41,400 nt of DNA, from assembly GCA_017528825.1 (NCBI GenBank), contig JAFXOI010000020.1, positions 1-41,400 of the forward strand. Direction: 5' to 3'. The DNA comes from Elusimicrobiaceae bacterium. Lineage in GTDB: Bacteria > Elusimicrobiota > Elusimicrobia > Elusimicrobiales > Elusimicrobiaceae. The notes under the pieces were generated by a model that had not been told where the DNA came from, searched no databases, and saw only the letters and a program-made list of their open reading frames with translations. The first letter of the stretch is position 1, and every line of letters starts with the position of its first letter. Shown here in pieces: positions 1,832 through 26,522 of the stretch. Both the position numbers and the translations under genes were made by a program.

Positions 1832-3004
1832 ATGTCTGCAAAAAGAATATCTTGTGTAGGGCGCATTGGCCGGAATGGCAAGCGCTATCGCAAGCAAATA
1901 AACGGTCGTGTTTATGACAAATGGATAGCTGGTAATGCGGACCAGCGGGAGCGTGCGTACAAAGAATGGGTGGCCGAATTAGAAAAGAAACACGCGCGTA
2001 GTGCAGTAGATAACTCTATCACTTTTTTAGATTTTAGAGAAAAATTTGTTACTTATATCCGAACCCTTAAAGATAAAAATACAGGAGAGTTACGGTATAG
2101 TCCGCGCACGGTGGAAGAATACCGCTACCACCTAGCGGAGTTTGAACGTGTAATGAAGATACGCTATGCCGGAAATGTAGATTATGCAATGTTGGCAGAG
2201 TTTAGGCGTAAATCTCGTGATGCGGCCGATAAGGCAAAGCAAAATTATTATGGTGTAAATAAGAAAATGGGTAGTGTTACACGTGCCCTAAAGTGGGGAA
2301 TGGCCGAGGGCCTTATAAATGTTTTTAACACAGCCCCGTTGGAAACAAAACTTGACACGGGTAAAGTTATTGTAAAAACGCTTACTAACTCGGCAGTATC
2401 TCTTTTAGTCAAATATAGTTCTGCAAAATGGAGCACAGCTGTCAAAATAGGATATTATGCTGGGTTGCGCCCCGAAGAAATGCTTAATCTGTTGGTATCA
2501 AAAATTGATTTCAAAACAGGTATTACAAAAATATGGGAGCACGCGGCCGATCAACGCCGTGGTATTGTGGCTTGGGCTCCCAAAAGAGATAAGCGCCGTT
2601 TAGTACTCTTGCCGCCCGATGTGCTAAAAGATATTAAACAACTGCACCCGAAAGAATATGTACTAACTAACAAACACGGCGAGCGGTACGATTTGGATAA
2701 CTTTGGCAAGGCGTGGAACAAAAATCTTAAACACGTCAACCGTTGCATTTTGCGTAACGAGCCGGACACACCACCTATTCGTTGCACATATAAAATCCTG
2801 CGCAAATCAAACATCACGGCTCTTATGGATATGGGGCTAGAAGAACAAGATGCTTCTTTAAGTTTAGGGCACGCAAACAAAAAAACTAGCGAGAAACATT
2901 ACATCAATGCAGATACTTTATTGCGCCAGCAAGAACACGCGCAGTTAGTGCAGATCCAAAAAATTAAGAAATATATTTTGTCTTTGCCCAAAACGATACG
3001 ATAA
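1832..3004 (+). CDS. Tyrosine recombinase (integrase) of the left element
   Basis: This 390-residue tyrosine recombinase would integrate or excise the element. An N-terminal SAM-like core-binding domain is seen at about 60-160 (YSPRTVEEYRYHLAEF). Catalytic Arg lies in YYAGLRPEEMLNL, the beta-hairpin Lys region in PKRDKRRLVLLP, the second Arg in YKILRKSN, then LGHANKKTSEKHY with the nucleophilic Tyr. The usual His of HxxR is replaced (KILR), a tolerated variation. Start: ATG 3 nt after the membrane-protein stop, with AAAGGA upstream. The gene ends about 145 bp from the 3' end of tRNA-Ser at 3150, the normal position of an integrase beside its attachment site, with direct repeats (3006-3080) between them. 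Confidence 0.9.
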   Translation: MSAKRISCVGRIGRNGKRYRKQINGRVYDKWIAGNADQRERAYKEWVAELEKKHARSAVDNSITFLDFREKFVTYIRTLKDKNTGELRYSPRTVEEYRYHLAEFERVMKIRYAGNVDYAMLAEFRRKSRDAADKAKQNYYGVNKKMGSVTRALKWGMAEGLINVFNTAPLETKLDTGKVIVKTLTNSAVSLLVKYSSAKWSTAVKIGYYAGLRPEEMLNLLVSKIDFKTGITKIWEHAADQRRGIVAWAPKRDKRRLVLLPPDVLKDIKQLHPKEYVLTNKHGERYDLDNFGKAWNKNLKHVNRCILRNEPDTPPIRCTYKILRKSNITALMDMGLEEQDASLSLGHANKKTSEKHYINADTLLRQQEHAQLVQIQKIKKYILSLPKTIR

Positions 3005-3149: not shown

Positions 3150-3236
3150 CGGAAGGGGAGGGATTCGAACCCTCGATACAGTTTCCCGTATATCAGTTTT
3201 CAAGACTGACGCCTTAAACCACTCGGCCACCCTTCC
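3150..3236 (-). tRNA. tRNA-Ser(UGA)
   Basis: The minus strand folds as a class II tRNA: acceptor stem GGAAGGG/CCCTTCC, anticodon loop CTTGAAA (anticodon TGA), a long variable arm (TACGGGAAACTGTA), T-arm GAGGG-TTCGAAT-CCCTC and discriminator G. CCA is not encoded. A -10 like TACAAT with TGC before it sits at 3264-3259, about 22 nt upstream. It is the attachment site of the left element and one border of the island to its right. Confidence 0.95.
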
Positions 3237-6040: not shown

Positions 6041-6390
6041 TTATTAAATTTATATAGTTCTAACCGAAACCATATATAAATATAAATGAATTCTTCTTAA
6101 GGTCCTTTATTTTGCCTAATATTTAATTTGCATCTCCATGGTAGCATCTTTTTGTCTGTTTTTCACGGTTTCGAGTGCTGTTCTTCATGGTTTTGGAAGA
6201 AAAATAGTGATCTTCCTCTATATATGATACTAAGAAACTTTTCAAAATCTTGATTTAGTCACTTTTACTTCAATCATTTAAATCATAAAGAATGCTTTTT
6301 GATATACACCAATGAATTTTGATCTTTTCATTTAAATCTTTATAGGAACAATGAAAATTGCTCCTAAATGAAAATAACAGGAGAAAAAAT
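6041..6390. promoter_or_regulatory. Divergent control region of the integrase-replication module
   Basis: There is no gene in these 350 nt. The undecamer TCATTTAAATC is repeated at 6274-6284 and 6328-6338. A small hairpin with a GAAA loop (AGGA...TCCT, 6344-6365) lies just before the replication gene. TATATAA-like AT-rich stretches at 6040-6085 may hold the promoter of the leftward excisionase-integrase pair. The repeats and the position next to a replication gene make an origin possible, but two copies are weak evidence. Confidence 0.35.
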
Positions 6391-7623
6391 ATGGATAGAC
6401 AACGACTATATATCCCATTGAAAAAAATTGAAGTGAAGGAAAGATATCCTTTGGAATTTAAACCTTGGAAGAAAGAATTTTCGAATGAATATTTTCCTGA
6501 AGTATCCGTAAAAAATGATACCCATTATGGGCTTGAGTTATTAATTCAATATTCTCATTCTAAAATTTTATATGGAAATAATCTATTGGAAGCTTCTCCA
6601 GGGCTATTGAGAGAATGTACTGAACAGTTATGTGAAAAACTTGAAAAAATGGGCATAAAAGCGCCGTTTGAAGTTTTATGGGAGCATAGTACGATGAGTG
6701 CTTTGGAAATAGGAAAGAATATAAATTTGGATTCTTTACCTGCTTGGGTAGTAGTGGATTATTTGAAAAAGTTTCCAGCTCCGTGTGGCTATATGGACCC
6801 CGCTGAAGATTATTATCATTCACAAACAAGAAACAATCAATGCCGTTTTTATAGTCGAAGTCATGAAGTGACATTCTATAATAAAACTCAAGAATTACAG
6901 GATAAACTCCAACAGAATATGGAGGGTTTCTTTTTTTGTAGGCCGAATATTTTACGTTTTGAGGTGCGGTTAAATAAATCGGCCTTAAAAACTTTATTTG
7001 GAAAAACGGCCATTAGTTTAAGTGATTTGGCAGCCAAAAAAGATTGTTATGAAGAGGTTGTTGAAAAGTACTGGAACCCTTTTGTAAAAGCAAGTAAACA
7101 CAATCCTATTTATCTTTCTCCCCAGGCACAGTTGGCTCAAGTTAAATCTCATCTAAAGCCACAATCATATATAAATCTATTGGCTTTCAAAGAAATGGAA
7201 TATCGTGAAGGTTTTTGCTATACAAAATGTTTTTTTGAGCGAGAGATTGGCAAACAAGAGACCCATAATATCATTGCTTGTTATAAACGATATCCTATTC
7301 TTAATATCGTAGATAATAAGTATGATATTATAGACAAATTAGATTATGCTATATCGCACCCGCGGTGGTGGCTGAAAATGGAAGATATTTTTAAACCCAA
7401 TGAAAGACCGTTTGAATTTTCTCAGTGTTTAGTAGAAGATTGGTGGACTACGGCAGATTCGTCAGAATACCTCGGTATTTGCGAACGTGCTGTTCAAAAT
7501 AAATGCCGCTCGGGAGAAATCCCCAGTTTCTTTGTTGGAGGAAAATATCGTCTAAAAAAAGCGGATGTAATGAACTATCAATACCAACAAAAATTAATAA
7601 AAAAGACCCCCAACACCCTATAG
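6391..7623 (+). CDS. Phage/plasmid replication protein (gene II/X-like) with C-terminal HTH
   Basis: This 410-residue protein resembles rolling-circle initiators of the phage/plasmid gene II/X family. Typical motifs are HEVTFYNKTQELQDK (about 160-175) and NILRFEVRLNKSALK (about 188-203). The last 60 residues (WWTTADSSEYLGICERAVQN, then GEIPSFFVGGKYRLKKADV) form a separate MerR/excisionase-type helix-turn-helix, an uncommon fusion. ATG at 6391 has AGGAG upstream; an earlier in-frame TTG is not needed. It is divergent from the integrase pair. In a family setting it would nick DNA at an origin after excision. The catalytic Tyr/His residues are not assigned with certainty. Confidence 0.7.
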   Translation: MDRQRLYIPLKKIEVKERYPLEFKPWKKEFSNEYFPEVSVKNDTHYGLELLIQYSHSKILYGNNLLEASPGLLRECTEQLCEKLEKMGIKAPFEVLWEHSTMSALEIGKNINLDSLPAWVVVDYLKKFPAPCGYMDPAEDYYHSQTRNNQCRFYSRSHEVTFYNKTQELQDKLQQNMEGFFFCRPNILRFEVRLNKSALKTLFGKTAISLSDLAAKKDCYEEVVEKYWNPFVKASKHNPIYLSPQAQLAQVKSHLKPQSYINLLAFKEMEYREGFCYTKCFFEREIGKQETHNIIACYKRYPILNIVDNKYDIIDKLDYAISHPRWWLKMEDIFKPNERPFEFSQCLVEDWWTTADSSEYLGICERAVQNKCRSGEIPSFFVGGKYRLKKADVMNYQYQQKLIKKTPNTL

Positions 7624-8136: not shown

Positions 8137-8359
8137 CAATTTAATCTGTTTTTGGAATCCTATAGAGAATAGGATTGCACCTTGGTGATAAACCAAAGTT
8201 CAATGAGAGTCCAAAAATAGCTGGTTTAGGCAGAACGTAGAAGGAAGTCATGAGCCTTCTATGCTCTGCCAAGTGTATCTATTAGAGCATTAATAGATAC
8301 CACGGCTGTTTAGGATCTAAGGCACTCTCATTGACTTAGTACTAGGCGGCCGTTTTTTT
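8137..8359 (+). ncRNA. Structured RNA, copy 1, upstream of polysaccharide operon
   Basis: The helices can be traced by eye. P1 is 8146-8156 with 8210-8220 and encloses P2 (8156-8163/8169-8176; P1 and P2 share one base at the junction) and P3 (8179-8186/8192-8199). P4 is 8229-8244/8255-8270, P5 8275-8284/8291-8300, and P6 8302-8308/8347-8353, followed by seven T. TCAATGAGAG (8200-8209) pairs perfectly with CTCTCATTGA (8325-8334) inside the P6 loop, a pseudoknot. The same architecture recurs at 26484-26264 with different stem sequences. A -10-like TATAGT lies at 8106-8111. The first gene of the operon begins 74 nt after the T-run. I do not recognise it as a known RNA class. Confidence 0.75.
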
Positions 8360-14632: not shown

Positions 14633-14719
14633 CGGAAAGCGAGGAACTCGGATCCTCGATACAGTTTCCCGTATATCAGTTTTCAAGACTGACGCCTTAA
14701 ACCGCTCGGCCACCCTTCC
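14633..14719 (-). pseudogene. Degenerate tRNA-Ser(UGA) copy, right border of island
   Basis: It is alignable to 3150-3236 over its full length with 7 differences in 86 positions, six of them in the 20 bases of the T-arm and 3' acceptor side. The T-loop becomes TCCGAGT, losing the invariant T at position 55. The acceptor stem has one G-U and one G-G pair. One T-stem pair has changed on both sides (G-C to A-T), keeping the stem. Anticodon and variable arms are identical to the intact gene. No -10 box as good as that of the intact copy is seen. A functional tRNA is possible but unlikely. Confidence 0.7.
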
Positions 14720-22178: not shown

Positions 22179-25100
22179 ATGGGGAGCCATCTGTTTTCCA
22201 TGTTTTCTAAAGAAAATCAATTGCCTGAGAAAATAAAATCTTTTCTGGAGATGCTCACTTGGTTACCGGTACCGGTAACCTTGGTGGATGCCGACGGGAA
22301 AGTAATCGGCATCAATACTCGCATGGAACAGTTAATCGGATTTACCAGTGAGCAAATTGCCGGCCAGCCACTCTCTAAATATGGGCTGGTTTGGGCAGAT
22401 GTGCAAGCCTTATTAAAAGCTTCCGCTACCGATAAAATCATTCGGGAAATTGTCACACGCGACATGGAAAGTTTGCACGTGAGCGTCGGTGCTACCCGCG
22501 TGCCGGATAGCCCGTACACCTTACTTACCTTTGAAGACGTGCCGGATTACCGCAAAACAATCGGAGAGAAACAGTTTTTACAATCTATTGTCTCGCATTA
22601 TCCTTTTGCCGTTATGGTGCAAGATGCTTACGGCGTGTGCCGTGCTTGGAATGACAAGATGACACAGCTGTTTCACGTTTCTTCCGCCGATGCTGTAGGA
22701 AGAAAAGTGTCGGAACTCATGCCGGTAGAATTGTCTAAAATACTGGGGATCTTGGACCATGAGGTATTGCAACAACAGCAAAGTTATCTCTCCCGTAACA
22801 TGAGTTTTCGCAAGCCAAACGGAGAAGAAGTGGCTTTAGCGGTAAGTAAAGTGCCTATGCTCAAGTCAGACCGCGTGGCTTCCATTCTGACCGTTTTTGA
22901 AGATATCACATCGCGCCACGCACAAGAAATCGAATTGGTGCAAACCCGTAATTTATTGCAAGCTATTTTGGATAATGTTCCGTTAGGCATTTATACCCGC
23001 ACTGCCGAAGGCCGCATGACGTATTATAACAAACAGAGCATGAAGGTGCTGGGAGTTTCAAATACGCAATACGTTACCACTCCGCACCCCAATCAGAAAT
23101 TATCTGATGTGCGCGGATATGCCAGCCGTGAGAAGGCCATTTTGGAAGAGGGAAAATTAAAAGAATATCCGGATGAAATTTTTGTGGATCAACAGGGAAA
23201 TGAGAAAGTGATTCATATGATTAAAGCTCCGTTGATGCATGCCGGTCCGGAACCGCTCGTGCTTAGTATTGTAGAAGATGTGACCCAAAAACGGGAACAG
23301 GAACGCAAGCTGATGCGTGCCAATGCCTTTTTAACCGCTATCGTAGAAAATATGCCGGTGGGATTGTATGCCCGCGATAAAGACGGGAAAATGTTGCTGA
23401 GCAATAAAAAGAGCGAAGAAATTTTCCACGATAAAAACGATCAGTTGGATGAGCGGGGGGCGGCCGCGCATGAAACAGAAGATCAAATTCGCGAGTATTT
23501 GAAACGCGAAACGGATTTGTTAGAAAGCGGCCAAATCTTGGATATCGCCGAAGAGCCTTATATGACGGAAACCGGCGAGTGGATTTCGTTGCATATCGTG
23601 AAGGTGCCTGTTTCTGATGTGGCGGGGCAATTTAGCTTCGTCATTACGATGGTGGAAGATATTACCAAACGTAAAGAACAGGAACGCAAACTGGCTAAAT
23701 TCAGTCAATTCCAACAAGCTGTTTTAGACAATGCGCCTTTAGCTATTTATGCCCGCAGTATGGACAAAACATGGACCTTTATCAATAAAAAAGCTAAAGA
23801 ACTCTTCCCGCAGGAAACTTTGTATTTAGATGAACATGACTTTTATAGCGAGCGAGAACGGAAAGTATTAGAAGAAGGAACTATTTTGGATATTCCGGAA
23901 GAGGAATATATTAATAGAAACAATGTAAGACTACTGCTCCACTTGATTAAAGTACCCGTAATGGATCAAGAAGGGCGTCCGTTCATGATGCTTTCTATTG
24001 CCGAAGATATTACGCAAAAGAAGCAACAAGAAAAAGAAATTCTGCAGAGCAAAAATTTCTTACAAAATATCGTAGACAATTTGCCGGTGGCCTTGTCTGT
24101 TAAAAAACCGGATGGTACCTATATTTTGTGGAATAAACGCAGTGAACAAATTTTTGGAGTGGCGGCTAATACCGTCATCGGTAAACAAGATTACCGTCAG
24201 GACATTACCAGAGAACAGCTGGACTTTGTGTTGGAGTCCGATAAGAAGGTGTTTAACAGCCATCGGGAGCTCAACATCGCCCAAGAGCTGATTTCTACCC
24301 CCAACGAAGGTGTGAAAATTATGCACACCGTCAAAACTCCTTTGTATAATTCTGACGGAGATGCCGATTATTTGCTCAATGTATCGGAAGATATTACGAG
24401 CAAGACCAAAATGGAACGCAAAATGCGGGAAGCGGGGGAGAAGAACTCTTTGCTAGTAGAAAATGTGCAAGAAGGAATTGTCATTTTAGAAGATCGGAAA
24501 ATTATTTATTCCAACCGCACCGCTTGCCAAATGTTAGGTGTATCTTCCTCTGAGGAATTAACGGATAAATTGTTAGCGGATTTCATTAGCCCGGATCATC
24601 AACCGATTGCGCGCGAAAAATACGAAGCGGTGGTCAATGGTTTGGAAGGGTCTCAAGAACCGTTACAATTGTATTTTGCCCGGCCCGATGGAGGCAGAAC
24701 GGAAGTGGAACTATCTGCTTTAGCTGAAAAGTATTTGGGCCGCCGTATTGTGTTGGTTTTCTTCCGAGATATGACACGCGCCAATAAGATGATGCGGGAA
24801 ATCCGCTCCGAGCGTGAAACTTTCAAAAATGCGTTTGAAAAAGCAGTTCACCCGATGTTGATTTTGAATTCTAAAGGATATATTCAGACCATGAACCAAT
24901 CTGCTCGGGAACTCTTTCACCTGCAAGAAAAAGATAAAGTGTTTTATCGTAATGTTTACATGCGCCCTATGTTGGCGCTGGAAACACGGCGGCAAATGTC
25001 CCAAGGGCAACCGACAGAAATGGATTGGGTGTTTGATTTCGATAAAGCAGCCGAGAAATTCCCCGGGCGTATTACCGGAGAAGGCAAACTGCCTTTACAT

Positions 25101-25190
25101 ATGAGCTTTGTGCCGTTTAACAAGCGAGATACTTCGGACGGTCAAGTATTGGCAGATTATTTGGTTACGCTACAAGTAAAACCTTCCTAA
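22179..25190 (+). CDS. Multi-PAS sensor protein without output domain
   Basis: This 1003-residue soluble protein has about eight PAS domains in tandem. Each begins with an F-L-x-x-I-V/L-D-N-x-P helix and a strand such as PLGIYTRTAEG, and most end with a LSIVEDVTQKREQE-type PAC strand and linker. Approximate domain starts are residues 20, 132, 262, 382, 508, 628, 752 and 868. The C-terminus (DYLVTLQVKPS) is itself a PAC strand; no histidine kinase, GGDEF, EAL or other output domain and no membrane segment follow. GAGGAG precedes ATG. It may be a scaffold or partner for a separate kinase. A terminator shared with the convergent pilin gene follows. Confidence 0.85.
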   Translation: MGSHLFSMFSKENQLPEKIKSFLEMLTWLPVPVTLVDADGKVIGINTRMEQLIGFTSEQIAGQPLSKYGLVWADVQALLKASATDKIIREIVTRDMESLHVSVGATRVPDSPYTLLTFEDVPDYRKTIGEKQFLQSIVSHYPFAVMVQDAYGVCRAWNDKMTQLFHVSSADAVGRKVSELMPVELSKILGILDHEVLQQQQSYLSRNMSFRKPNGEEVALAVSKVPMLKSDRVASILTVFEDITSRHAQEIELVQTRNLLQAILDNVPLGIYTRTAEGRMTYYNKQSMKVLGVSNTQYVTTPHPNQKLSDVRGYASREKAILEEGKLKEYPDEIFVDQQGNEKVIHMIKAPLMHAGPEPLVLSIVEDVTQKREQERKLMRANAFLTAIVENMPVGLYARDKDGKMLLSNKKSEEIFHDKNDQLDERGAAAHETEDQIREYLKRETDLLESGQILDIAEEPYMTETGEWISLHIVKVPVSDVAGQFSFVITMVEDITKRKEQERKLAKFSQFQQAVLDNAPLAIYARSMDKTWTFINKKAKELFPQETLYLDEHDFYSERERKVLEEGTILDIPEEEYINRNNVRLLLHLIKVPVMDQEGRPFMMLSIAEDITQKKQQEKEILQSKNFLQNIVDNLPVALSVKKPDGTYILWNKRSEQIFGVAANTVIGKQDYRQDITREQLDFVLESDKKVFNSHRELNIAQELISTPNEGVKIMHTVKTPLYNSDGDADYLLNVSEDITSKTKMERKMREAGEKNSLLVENVQEGIVILEDRKIIYSNRTACQMLGVSSSEELTDKLLADFISPDHQPIAREKYEAVVNGLEGSQEPLQLYFARPDGGRTEVELSALAEKYLGRRIVLVFFRDMTRANKMMREIRSERETFKNAFEKAVHPMLILNSKGYIQTMNQSARELFHLQEKDKVFYRNVYMRPMLALETRRQMSQGQPTEMDWVFDFDKAAEKFPGRITGEGKLPLHMSFVPFNKRDTSDGQVLADYLVTLQVKPS

Positions 25191-26225: not shown

Positions 26226-26263
26226 ACTATTCTCCTTTTATTTCTGTTTTGGAAAATAGACGC

Positions 26264-26484
26264 AAAAAAACGGCCGTCCTATTTGAGCCTTTTCACCTAA
26301 TCCAAACAAAACAGCCGTGGTTTGCCGCGCCCGAAGGCGTGGCAAACACTCGGCAAGTATCCCTTTGGGAGCTACCCATTAAGATACTTGCCTGATAACG
26401 AGCTGTTTTTGGAGGTGAAAAGTGCCTTGGGGTTCCCCAAAGCTCTCCGCATTCCACATGCGGTTCCAAAAACAGATTAAATTG
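26264..26484 (-). ncRNA. Structured RNA, copy 2, leader of Cys-rich pilin gene
   Basis: Same fold as 8137-8359, read on the minus strand. P1 is 26475-26465 with 26413-26403 (11 perfect pairs), P2 26463-26458/26452-26447, P3 26442-26435/26432-26425, P4 26392-26383/26361-26352, P5 26347-26336/26331-26320, and P6 26318-26312/26276-26270, then six more T. The pseudoknot pairs plus-strand AGGTGAAAAG (26413-26422) with CTTTTCACCT (26289-26298). The first 20 bases of the two copies are identical, while P2, P4, P5 and the pseudoknot differ in sequence but stay paired. Only 38 nt, without a promoter, separate the U-run from the pilin ATG. Confidence 0.78.
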
Positions 26485-26494
26485 ATACTACGTA

Positions 26495-26522
26495 CCTAGT
26501 ATAACAAAATTTTTATACTAGG
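26495..26522 (-). promoter_or_regulatory. Promoter and operator-like inverted repeat of RNA copy 2
   Basis: CCTAGTATAA (26495-26504) and TTATACTAGG (26513-26522) are perfect 10-bp arms. The left arm contains a minus-strand TATACT (26503-26498) suitable as the -10 box for the RNA, whose conserved part begins 14 nt later. A regulator bound here would block transcription of the RNA and probably of the pilin. Confidence 0.5.

Follow-up and report, generated by a model that had tools for sequence, protein, structure and literature searches.

The window, the whole 41,400-nucleotide stretch of Elusimicrobiaceae DNA analysed here (GCA_017528825.1, contig JAFXOI010000020.1), carries two RNAs of ~220 nt, at 8137-8359 (+) and 26484-26264 (-). 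The first-pass annotation had singled them out, and their positions were borne out by covariance-model matches with cmsearch (copy 1, 8140-8358 (+), 140.7 bits; copy 2, 26265-26481 (-), 187.4 bits). Six helices (P1-P6) and a fully covarying 10-bp pairing between two strands, PKa and PKb, are common to both copies; the helices and the pairing strands, TCAATGAGAG/CTCTCATTGA in copy 1 and CTTTTCACCT/AGGTGAAAAG in copy 2, were found exactly as first quoted. Copy 1 precedes a surface-polysaccharide cluster encoding a HAD hydrolase, sugar nucleotidyltransferases, a capsule-phosphatase-like protein and WavE (Pfam/NCBIfam), and copy 2 precedes a type IV pilin gene. The features are as follows.

8137..8359, + strand: leader RNA copy 1 (cmsearch), ahead of the HAD / nucleotidyltransferase / WavE cluster (downstream genes by Pfam/NCBIfam)
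8146..8156, + strand: copy 1, P1 5' strand, the putative anti-antiterminator strand, CTGTTTTTGGA
8158..8174, + strand: copy 1, P2 hairpin
8178..8200, + strand: copy 1, P3 hairpin
8200..8223, + strand: copy 1, predicted antiterminator 5' strand, composed of the PKa tag (8200-8210), P1' (8210-8220) and CTG
8229..8270, + strand: copy 1, P4 hairpin with the self-complementary loop TCATGA (8248-8253)
8275..8300, + strand: copy 1, P5 hairpin
8303..8359, + strand: copy 1, P6, predicted intrinsic terminator with T-tract and with PKb (8324-8334) in its loop
8434..9108, + strand: first gene after copy 1, HAD-like hydrolase (PF13419, E 1.1e-11), putative regulated gene 1
26498..26507, - strand: promoter-like TTGTTATACT (-10 type), ~20 nt before copy 2, read in the sequence
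26264..26484, - strand: leader RNA copy 2 (cmsearch), ahead of the type IV pilin gene
26465..26475, - strand: copy 2, P1 5' strand, CTGTTTTTGGA
26447..26463, - strand: copy 2, P2 hairpin
26424..26443, - strand: copy 2, P3 hairpin
26399..26422, - strand: copy 2, predicted antiterminator 5' strand, composed of the PKa tag CTTTTCACCT (26413-26422), P1' and CTCG
26352..26392, - strand: copy 2, P4 hairpin with the self-complementary loop core AGCT
26320..26347, - strand: copy 2, P5 hairpin
26264..26317, - strand: copy 2, P6, predicted intrinsic terminator with PKb AGGTGAAAAG (26289-26298) in its loop
25170..26225, - strand: type IV pilin (N_methyl) of 351 aa (PF07963, E 5e-07; NCBIfam pilin models), putative regulated gene 2

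The two RNAs had been presented as a pair. Both are real, but they are not isolated, as the genome holds ~48 copies of what is a high-copy leader family. The first 18 conserved bases recur all over the genome to which the window belongs (1.53 Mb in 41 contigs), and a covariance model (R1) built from 38 of its copies gave 45 matches above 60 bits on this genome, together with a few weaker ones. The search of Elusimicrobiota with such a model, which the first-pass annotation had proposed, was run and matched 96 of the 341 genomes of the phylum. The leader occurs in nearly all genomes of two genera of the window's family (f1) and a few others of that family, and also in several genera of one other family (f21), while the families between them that were searched had none. 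The number of copies per genome ranges from 0 to at least 65 among close relatives. The named records with the leader are Elusimicrobiota, and many come from the gut (rumen, faeces and others). The P1 search pattern also hit records of Gammaproteobacteria, Nitrospirae, Scytonema and Bacteroidetes as well as three viral contigs; these matches were discarded as due to chance. In total, 283 distinct copies were assembled from Elusimicrobiota (f1 and f21), of which 271 were parsed.

The proposal that the RNA stands outside the known classes also held. In the Rfam 15 search of the window at the gathering threshold, only tRNAs were matched; at E 10, the sub-threshold matches of the leader were at chance level and included no riboswitch, and the T-box model matched it at neither setting. 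No description was found in the literature, supplements and preprints lying outside the scope, so that an unnamed prediction in a large screen (e.g. PMC8040213) is possible. The leaders are a real and hitherto undescribed RNA family, and its novelty lies in the locus-tagged antiterminator, the copy number and the self-complementary P4 loop described below.

Comparative sequence analysis establishes the helices. The paired changes between the two window copies, first read as a sign of selected RNA structure, extend across the phylum: in an alignment almost free of training sequences, 97.1% of the paired cells of the nested helices are paired and 36 of the 47 pairs have changed on both sides. 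The P1-P6 covariation score was 0.43, as against 0.06-0.08 with slid partners, and none of 500 shuffled alignments was as good as the real one (the covariation alignments held 87 and 43 sequences). Covariation is also seen at a purine-pyrimidine pair that lies outside P5 and has a bulged U (G-C 136, A-U 84, G-U 15, A-C 1). In the parsed copies, P6 with its T-tract is a predicted intrinsic terminator between promoter and gene. Upstream, TATAHT is found at -90..-15 in 59% of copies, compared with 26% in shuffles; downstream, the median distance from the RNA end to the start codon is 38 nt. The P1' sequence (CCAAAACAG) was observed a third time between the terminator and the Shine-Dalgarno sequence, at 26244-26252 of the window and in equivalent places, and a GAGCCCGA-type element takes its place in other copies. 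This post-terminator repeat (P1'') is striking in the window genome and present in only about one third of all copies; it was dropped from the core model as not general.

The 10-bp pairing, described at first as a pseudoknot, is real, but its reading as a single static pseudoknot had to be revised, since it is nested in a longer antiterminator in which PKa-P1' pairs with the P6 5' arm and PKb. The RNA thus has several states that exclude one another, the antiterminator competing with both P1 and the terminator. PKa adjoins P1' with a gap of 0-2 nt, PKb lies 10-17 nt after the terminator 5' arm, and the PKa-P1'-NCG strand is complementary, in matching order, to the 5' arm, the inner arm and the loop of the terminator. 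The resulting antiterminator has 22.5 bp on average, and 11.1 if its PKb is replaced by that of another copy. Both alternative pairings of P1' are established by sequence comparison. When transcripts were cut at the end of PKb, the nested PKa:PKb pairing appeared in 99% of 262 minimum-energy folds, P1':P6-5' in 97% and P1 in 0%, and the antiterminator state was better than the P1 state by 13.1 +/- 2.8 kcal/mol (ViennaRNA, which ignores pseudoknots and kinetics). At full length, P1 plus terminator was favoured by 10.9 +/- 3.4 kcal/mol, likewise ignoring kinetics and not counting the pseudoknot. With only the P6 5' arm out, P1 and the antiterminator were balanced (0.8 +/- 1.9 kcal/mol, ViennaRNA), although some similarity in energy is expected because both share a strand. 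Taken together, these calculated energies are the thermodynamics of a three-state attenuator.

Sequence variants follow the same pairing. The CUA variant of the P6 5' arm always accompanies P1' UAG or UGG and never CAG. Furthermore, three divergent leaders, L294 (genome G078) and L300 and L304 (both in G304), have a terminator stem of GGCGG.. or GGCGATTA.. instead of CGGCTG, and their P1' reads AATAATCGCT, AATAATCGCC and AATAATCGTC, respectively, instead of AACAGYCG. The rewritten P1', AATAATCG(C/T), matches the rewritten terminator stem, and antiterminators of ~22 bp re-form. The gene downstream of L294 is of the same zinc-ribbon kind as those of L054, L080, L081 and L108.

The PKa and PKb strands act as tags of the locus in sequence comparison. 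Among the 38 window-genome copies, PKa and PKb form on average 9.6 Watson-Crick pairs in cis and 4.1 in trans, and across the phylum 261 of 271 copies reach at least 8 bp in cis, as against 1.0% of mismatched pairs; the pairing is therefore not due to chance. In the window genome, the antiterminator strand pairs with its own partner at -27.6 kcal/mol and with others at -17.8, and 31 of 36 copies prefer their own partner over every other; given the matching tags, the switches should work without interference between loci. Paralogues have different tags, and orthologues retain the same tag even at ~10% divergence elsewhere. In one pair of orthologous leaders (L127:6075 and L084), both tag strands have been replaced together in an RNA otherwise ~98.6% identical, and L043 has mismatched tag halves, as recombination between copies would leave. 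Identical 9-nt tags are shared between copies 44 times, versus 2.9 under a Markov null; a finite tag vocabulary was considered and set aside, since common descent with slow tag change explains the recurrent tags equally well. The split into conserved and hypervariable parts offers a testable rule for the orthogonality of many near-identical RNA switches in one cell, which would be useful for synthetic attenuators.

Association with surface genes is evident from the sequences. Of the 48 leader places in the window genome, 39 are followed within 0-500 nt, on the same strand, by a prepilin N-terminal motif, compared with 1 in the control on the upstream side and 1 on the opposite strand; the remaining copies stand before other genes or at the ends of contigs. 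This genome (1.53 Mb) has 113 prepilin motifs, about a third of which carry a leader, and another genome (G031) has at least 150. The leader number follows the pilin number only loosely (for example, 106 pilins with 2 leaders and 111 with 21), and such a dependence was not retained. Among 209 copies, whose downstream genes were assigned by reading the sequences except for the Pfam/NCBIfam-tested genes of the window, 132 are followed by a pilin-like ORF. The others include GT2 and GT8 glycosyltransferases, type III and EcoRI-like DNA methylases, lipoproteins, outer-membrane proteins, zinc-ribbon membrane proteins and TPR proteins, and the targets share no common biochemical pathway that would point to a ligand. 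Pilins, glycosyltransferases, DNA methylases and outer-membrane proteins are classes usually found under phase variation. With ~50 leaders of one family on pilin and surface genes in genomes of 1.5-1.8 Mb, RNA attenuation would be one of the chief means by which members of a poorly studied gut phylum control their surface. In four copies (L004, L015, L020 and L036), short palindromic repeats (GTCATGCTGAG.., GTCATTCCCGAA..) lie between the pilin start codon and the GFTLIELL motif; they appear inserted, apparently in frame in some, and resemble protein-coding palindromic elements.

The P4 hairpin has a further property. In 260 of 271 copies (96%) the P4 apical loop includes a palindrome of 4 nt or more, and in 189 one of 6 nt or more, whereas the P5 loop does so in 56 and 18. 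Counted over 58 distinct P4 loops, 90% have a 4-nt and 60% a 6-nt palindrome, as against 16-24% and 1-6% for P2, P3 and P5. There are ~20 cores (TAATTA, TTATAA, TCATGA, GATC, AGCT, TTCGAA and others), commonly arranged as 2 nt + core + 1 nt. Of the 11 non-palindromic loops, six are GACG tetraloops, a type of loop that is self-complementary in Moloney virus (PMC7357161). Judged from these loops, P4 probably mediates loop-loop dimerisation of the leaders, and the loops would then be an unusually well-sampled natural series of candidate bacterial RNA kissing dimers. Since two of the three divergent leaders lack the P4 hairpin, dimerisation is not essential to the switch, and P4 is an addition rather than part of its core.

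On this comparative evidence, we consider the leader RNA to be a cis-acting transcription attenuator, with a probability of roughly 80%. We infer that the leader is transcribed and that its termination is controlled, with P1-P2-P3 as the putative sensing domain. In the proposed mechanism, P1-P2-P3 would fold first on the nascent leader, and the terminator 5' arm and loop, once made by RNA polymerase, would invade P1. PKa-P1'-NCG would then pair with CGGCUGUU..UUUGG..PKb in a ~22-bp antiterminator enclosing P4 and P5, and the downstream gene would be transcribed. If a signal, a protein or a partner RNA were to stabilise P1 through the P1-P2-P3 domain, P1' would be unavailable, the P6 terminator would form and transcription would stop before the gene, P1 thus serving as anti-antiterminator and P6 as terminator. 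P1', P1-5', P6-5' and P6-3' constrain one another and vary little; PKa and PKb have to match only each other, so that each locus has its own tag and cis pairing would be kept among dozens of near-identical leaders. In the terminated state, PKa:PKb could also form as a true pseudoknot.

How such an attenuator would be set is a separate matter. It is possible, if tentative, that switching is stochastic or depends on RNA dosage without any ligand, with P4 dimers and a balanced P1/antiterminator equilibrium giving ON and OFF states on unchanged DNA. P1 and the antiterminator lie within a few kcal/mol in most copies, the P4 loops are self-complementary in nearly all (260/271) and the targets belong to typical phase-variable classes, but two divergent copies have no P4, and the A-U-rich DIS-like loops would kiss weakly. 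Somewhat more doubtful is a classical riboswitch, in which the P1-P2-P3 junction would bind a metabolite or second messenger. A three-way junction closed by an anti-antiterminator helix is the usual place for an aptamer, and one signal could set many surface genes together. However, an ordinary small-molecule aptamer is disfavoured because P1-P2-P3 has few conserved or invariant unpaired bases; P2 and P3 are free in sequence and length, the targets lack a common pathway, and Rfam gave no riboswitch match even at E 10. Rather unlikely is a self-recognising, dimerising attenuator on dozens of contingency genes (pilins, glycosyltransferases, methylases), in which P4 loops would meet their own kind and the tag would pair either within one transcript or between two made from the same gene. 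If true, each gene would read its own transcript level and switch independently, which amounts to phase variation by RNA only, with the DNA unchanged.

Outside the attenuator reading, a static pseudoknotted RNA, in which a tertiary contact of PKa with the terminator loop stabilises the terminated leader as a small RNA or an OFF lock, is improbable. In its favour, PKb is located in the loop of the terminator and PKa within the junction that P1 encloses, so that P1, P6 and PKa:PKb can be drawn together, and the best full-length fold is P1 plus terminator. Against this, PKa adjoins P1' and PKb comes after P6-5' in matching order, which gives one nested 22-bp helix; the P1' flanks and P6-5' covary beyond what P1 alone requires, and a loop of ~10 nt would need to pair along its full length. 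Antitermination by a NusG paralogue (RfaH, UpxY or LoaP type) or by leader-peptide translation was rejected as very improbable, even though operons for surface polysaccharides and pili are under the control of such systems (for the leader peptide, PMC3894217): each of 13 genomes with and without the leader has exactly one NusG gene, and among 271 copies an ATG occurs in P2 in only 124, with the three frames about equally used and no conserved reading frame. That the hairpins are the ends or recombination sites of a mobile DNA element rather than RNA, as the copy number of 0 to at least 65 among congeners, two contigs ending in the same copy and the position of copy 1 between two tRNA-Ser genes might suggest, is hardly credible in view of the single-strand compensatory changes including G-U pairs, the T-tract terminator on one strand, the fixed orientation to the downstream gene and the orthologues kept at the same locus.

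Among known systems, the attenuator proposed here resembles riboswitch and T-box attenuators in that it ends with an intrinsic terminator and that the 5' arm of this terminator can pair alternatively with a strand sequestered by P1 in the third state. Unlike these, one half of its antiterminator is hypervariable, specific to the locus and makes use of the terminator loop, it has a self-complementary P4 loop and neither an Rfam match nor a recognisable aptamer core, and it is present in dozens of copies per 1.5-Mb genome. The EAR element, RfaH/ops and LoaP bring about processive antitermination of surface operons; they share with the leader a structured RNA or leader before surface genes that controls termination (predicted here), whereas our leader carries its own terminator and antiterminator and involves no NusG paralogue. 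In Streptococcus gallolyticus pil1, pilus genes undergo phase variation at a premature terminator, which is opened by a leader peptide with a varying number of GCAGA repeats (PMC3894217). Pilus genes and a premature terminator, with termination predicted in our case, are common to both, but the Elusimicrobiota leader has no conserved leader peptide or repeat, and its switch would be RNA-RNA. Retroviral DIS loops (the HIV-1 palindrome and MoMuLV GACG loops; PMC7357161) are like P4 in their self-complementary apical-loop core, often with 2 nt + palindrome + 1 nt; the leader is bacterial, in contrast, with many cores that are often A-U rich, and its dimerisation is predicted from sequence.

Finally, several observations concern the surroundings of the leaders. 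Two contigs of the window genome (C15 and C16 of G000, bases 1-135) both end in an identical leader with different upstream DNA, which suggests either that leader-pilin copies have recombined recently or that the locus undergoes shuffling. In the window, two tRNA-Ser(TGA) genes that are 92% identical, at 3150-3236 and 14633-14719, flank a segment with a replication-protein-like ORF (6358-7623), with leader copy 1 and with the polysaccharide cluster; a tyrosine recombinase gene lies at 1832-3004. The arrangement looks like a tRNA-targeted genomic island, and the tRNA-Ser copy at 14633 may be a degenerate attachment-site duplicate. A protein of 1003 aa with repeated PAS domains is encoded at 22179-25190.
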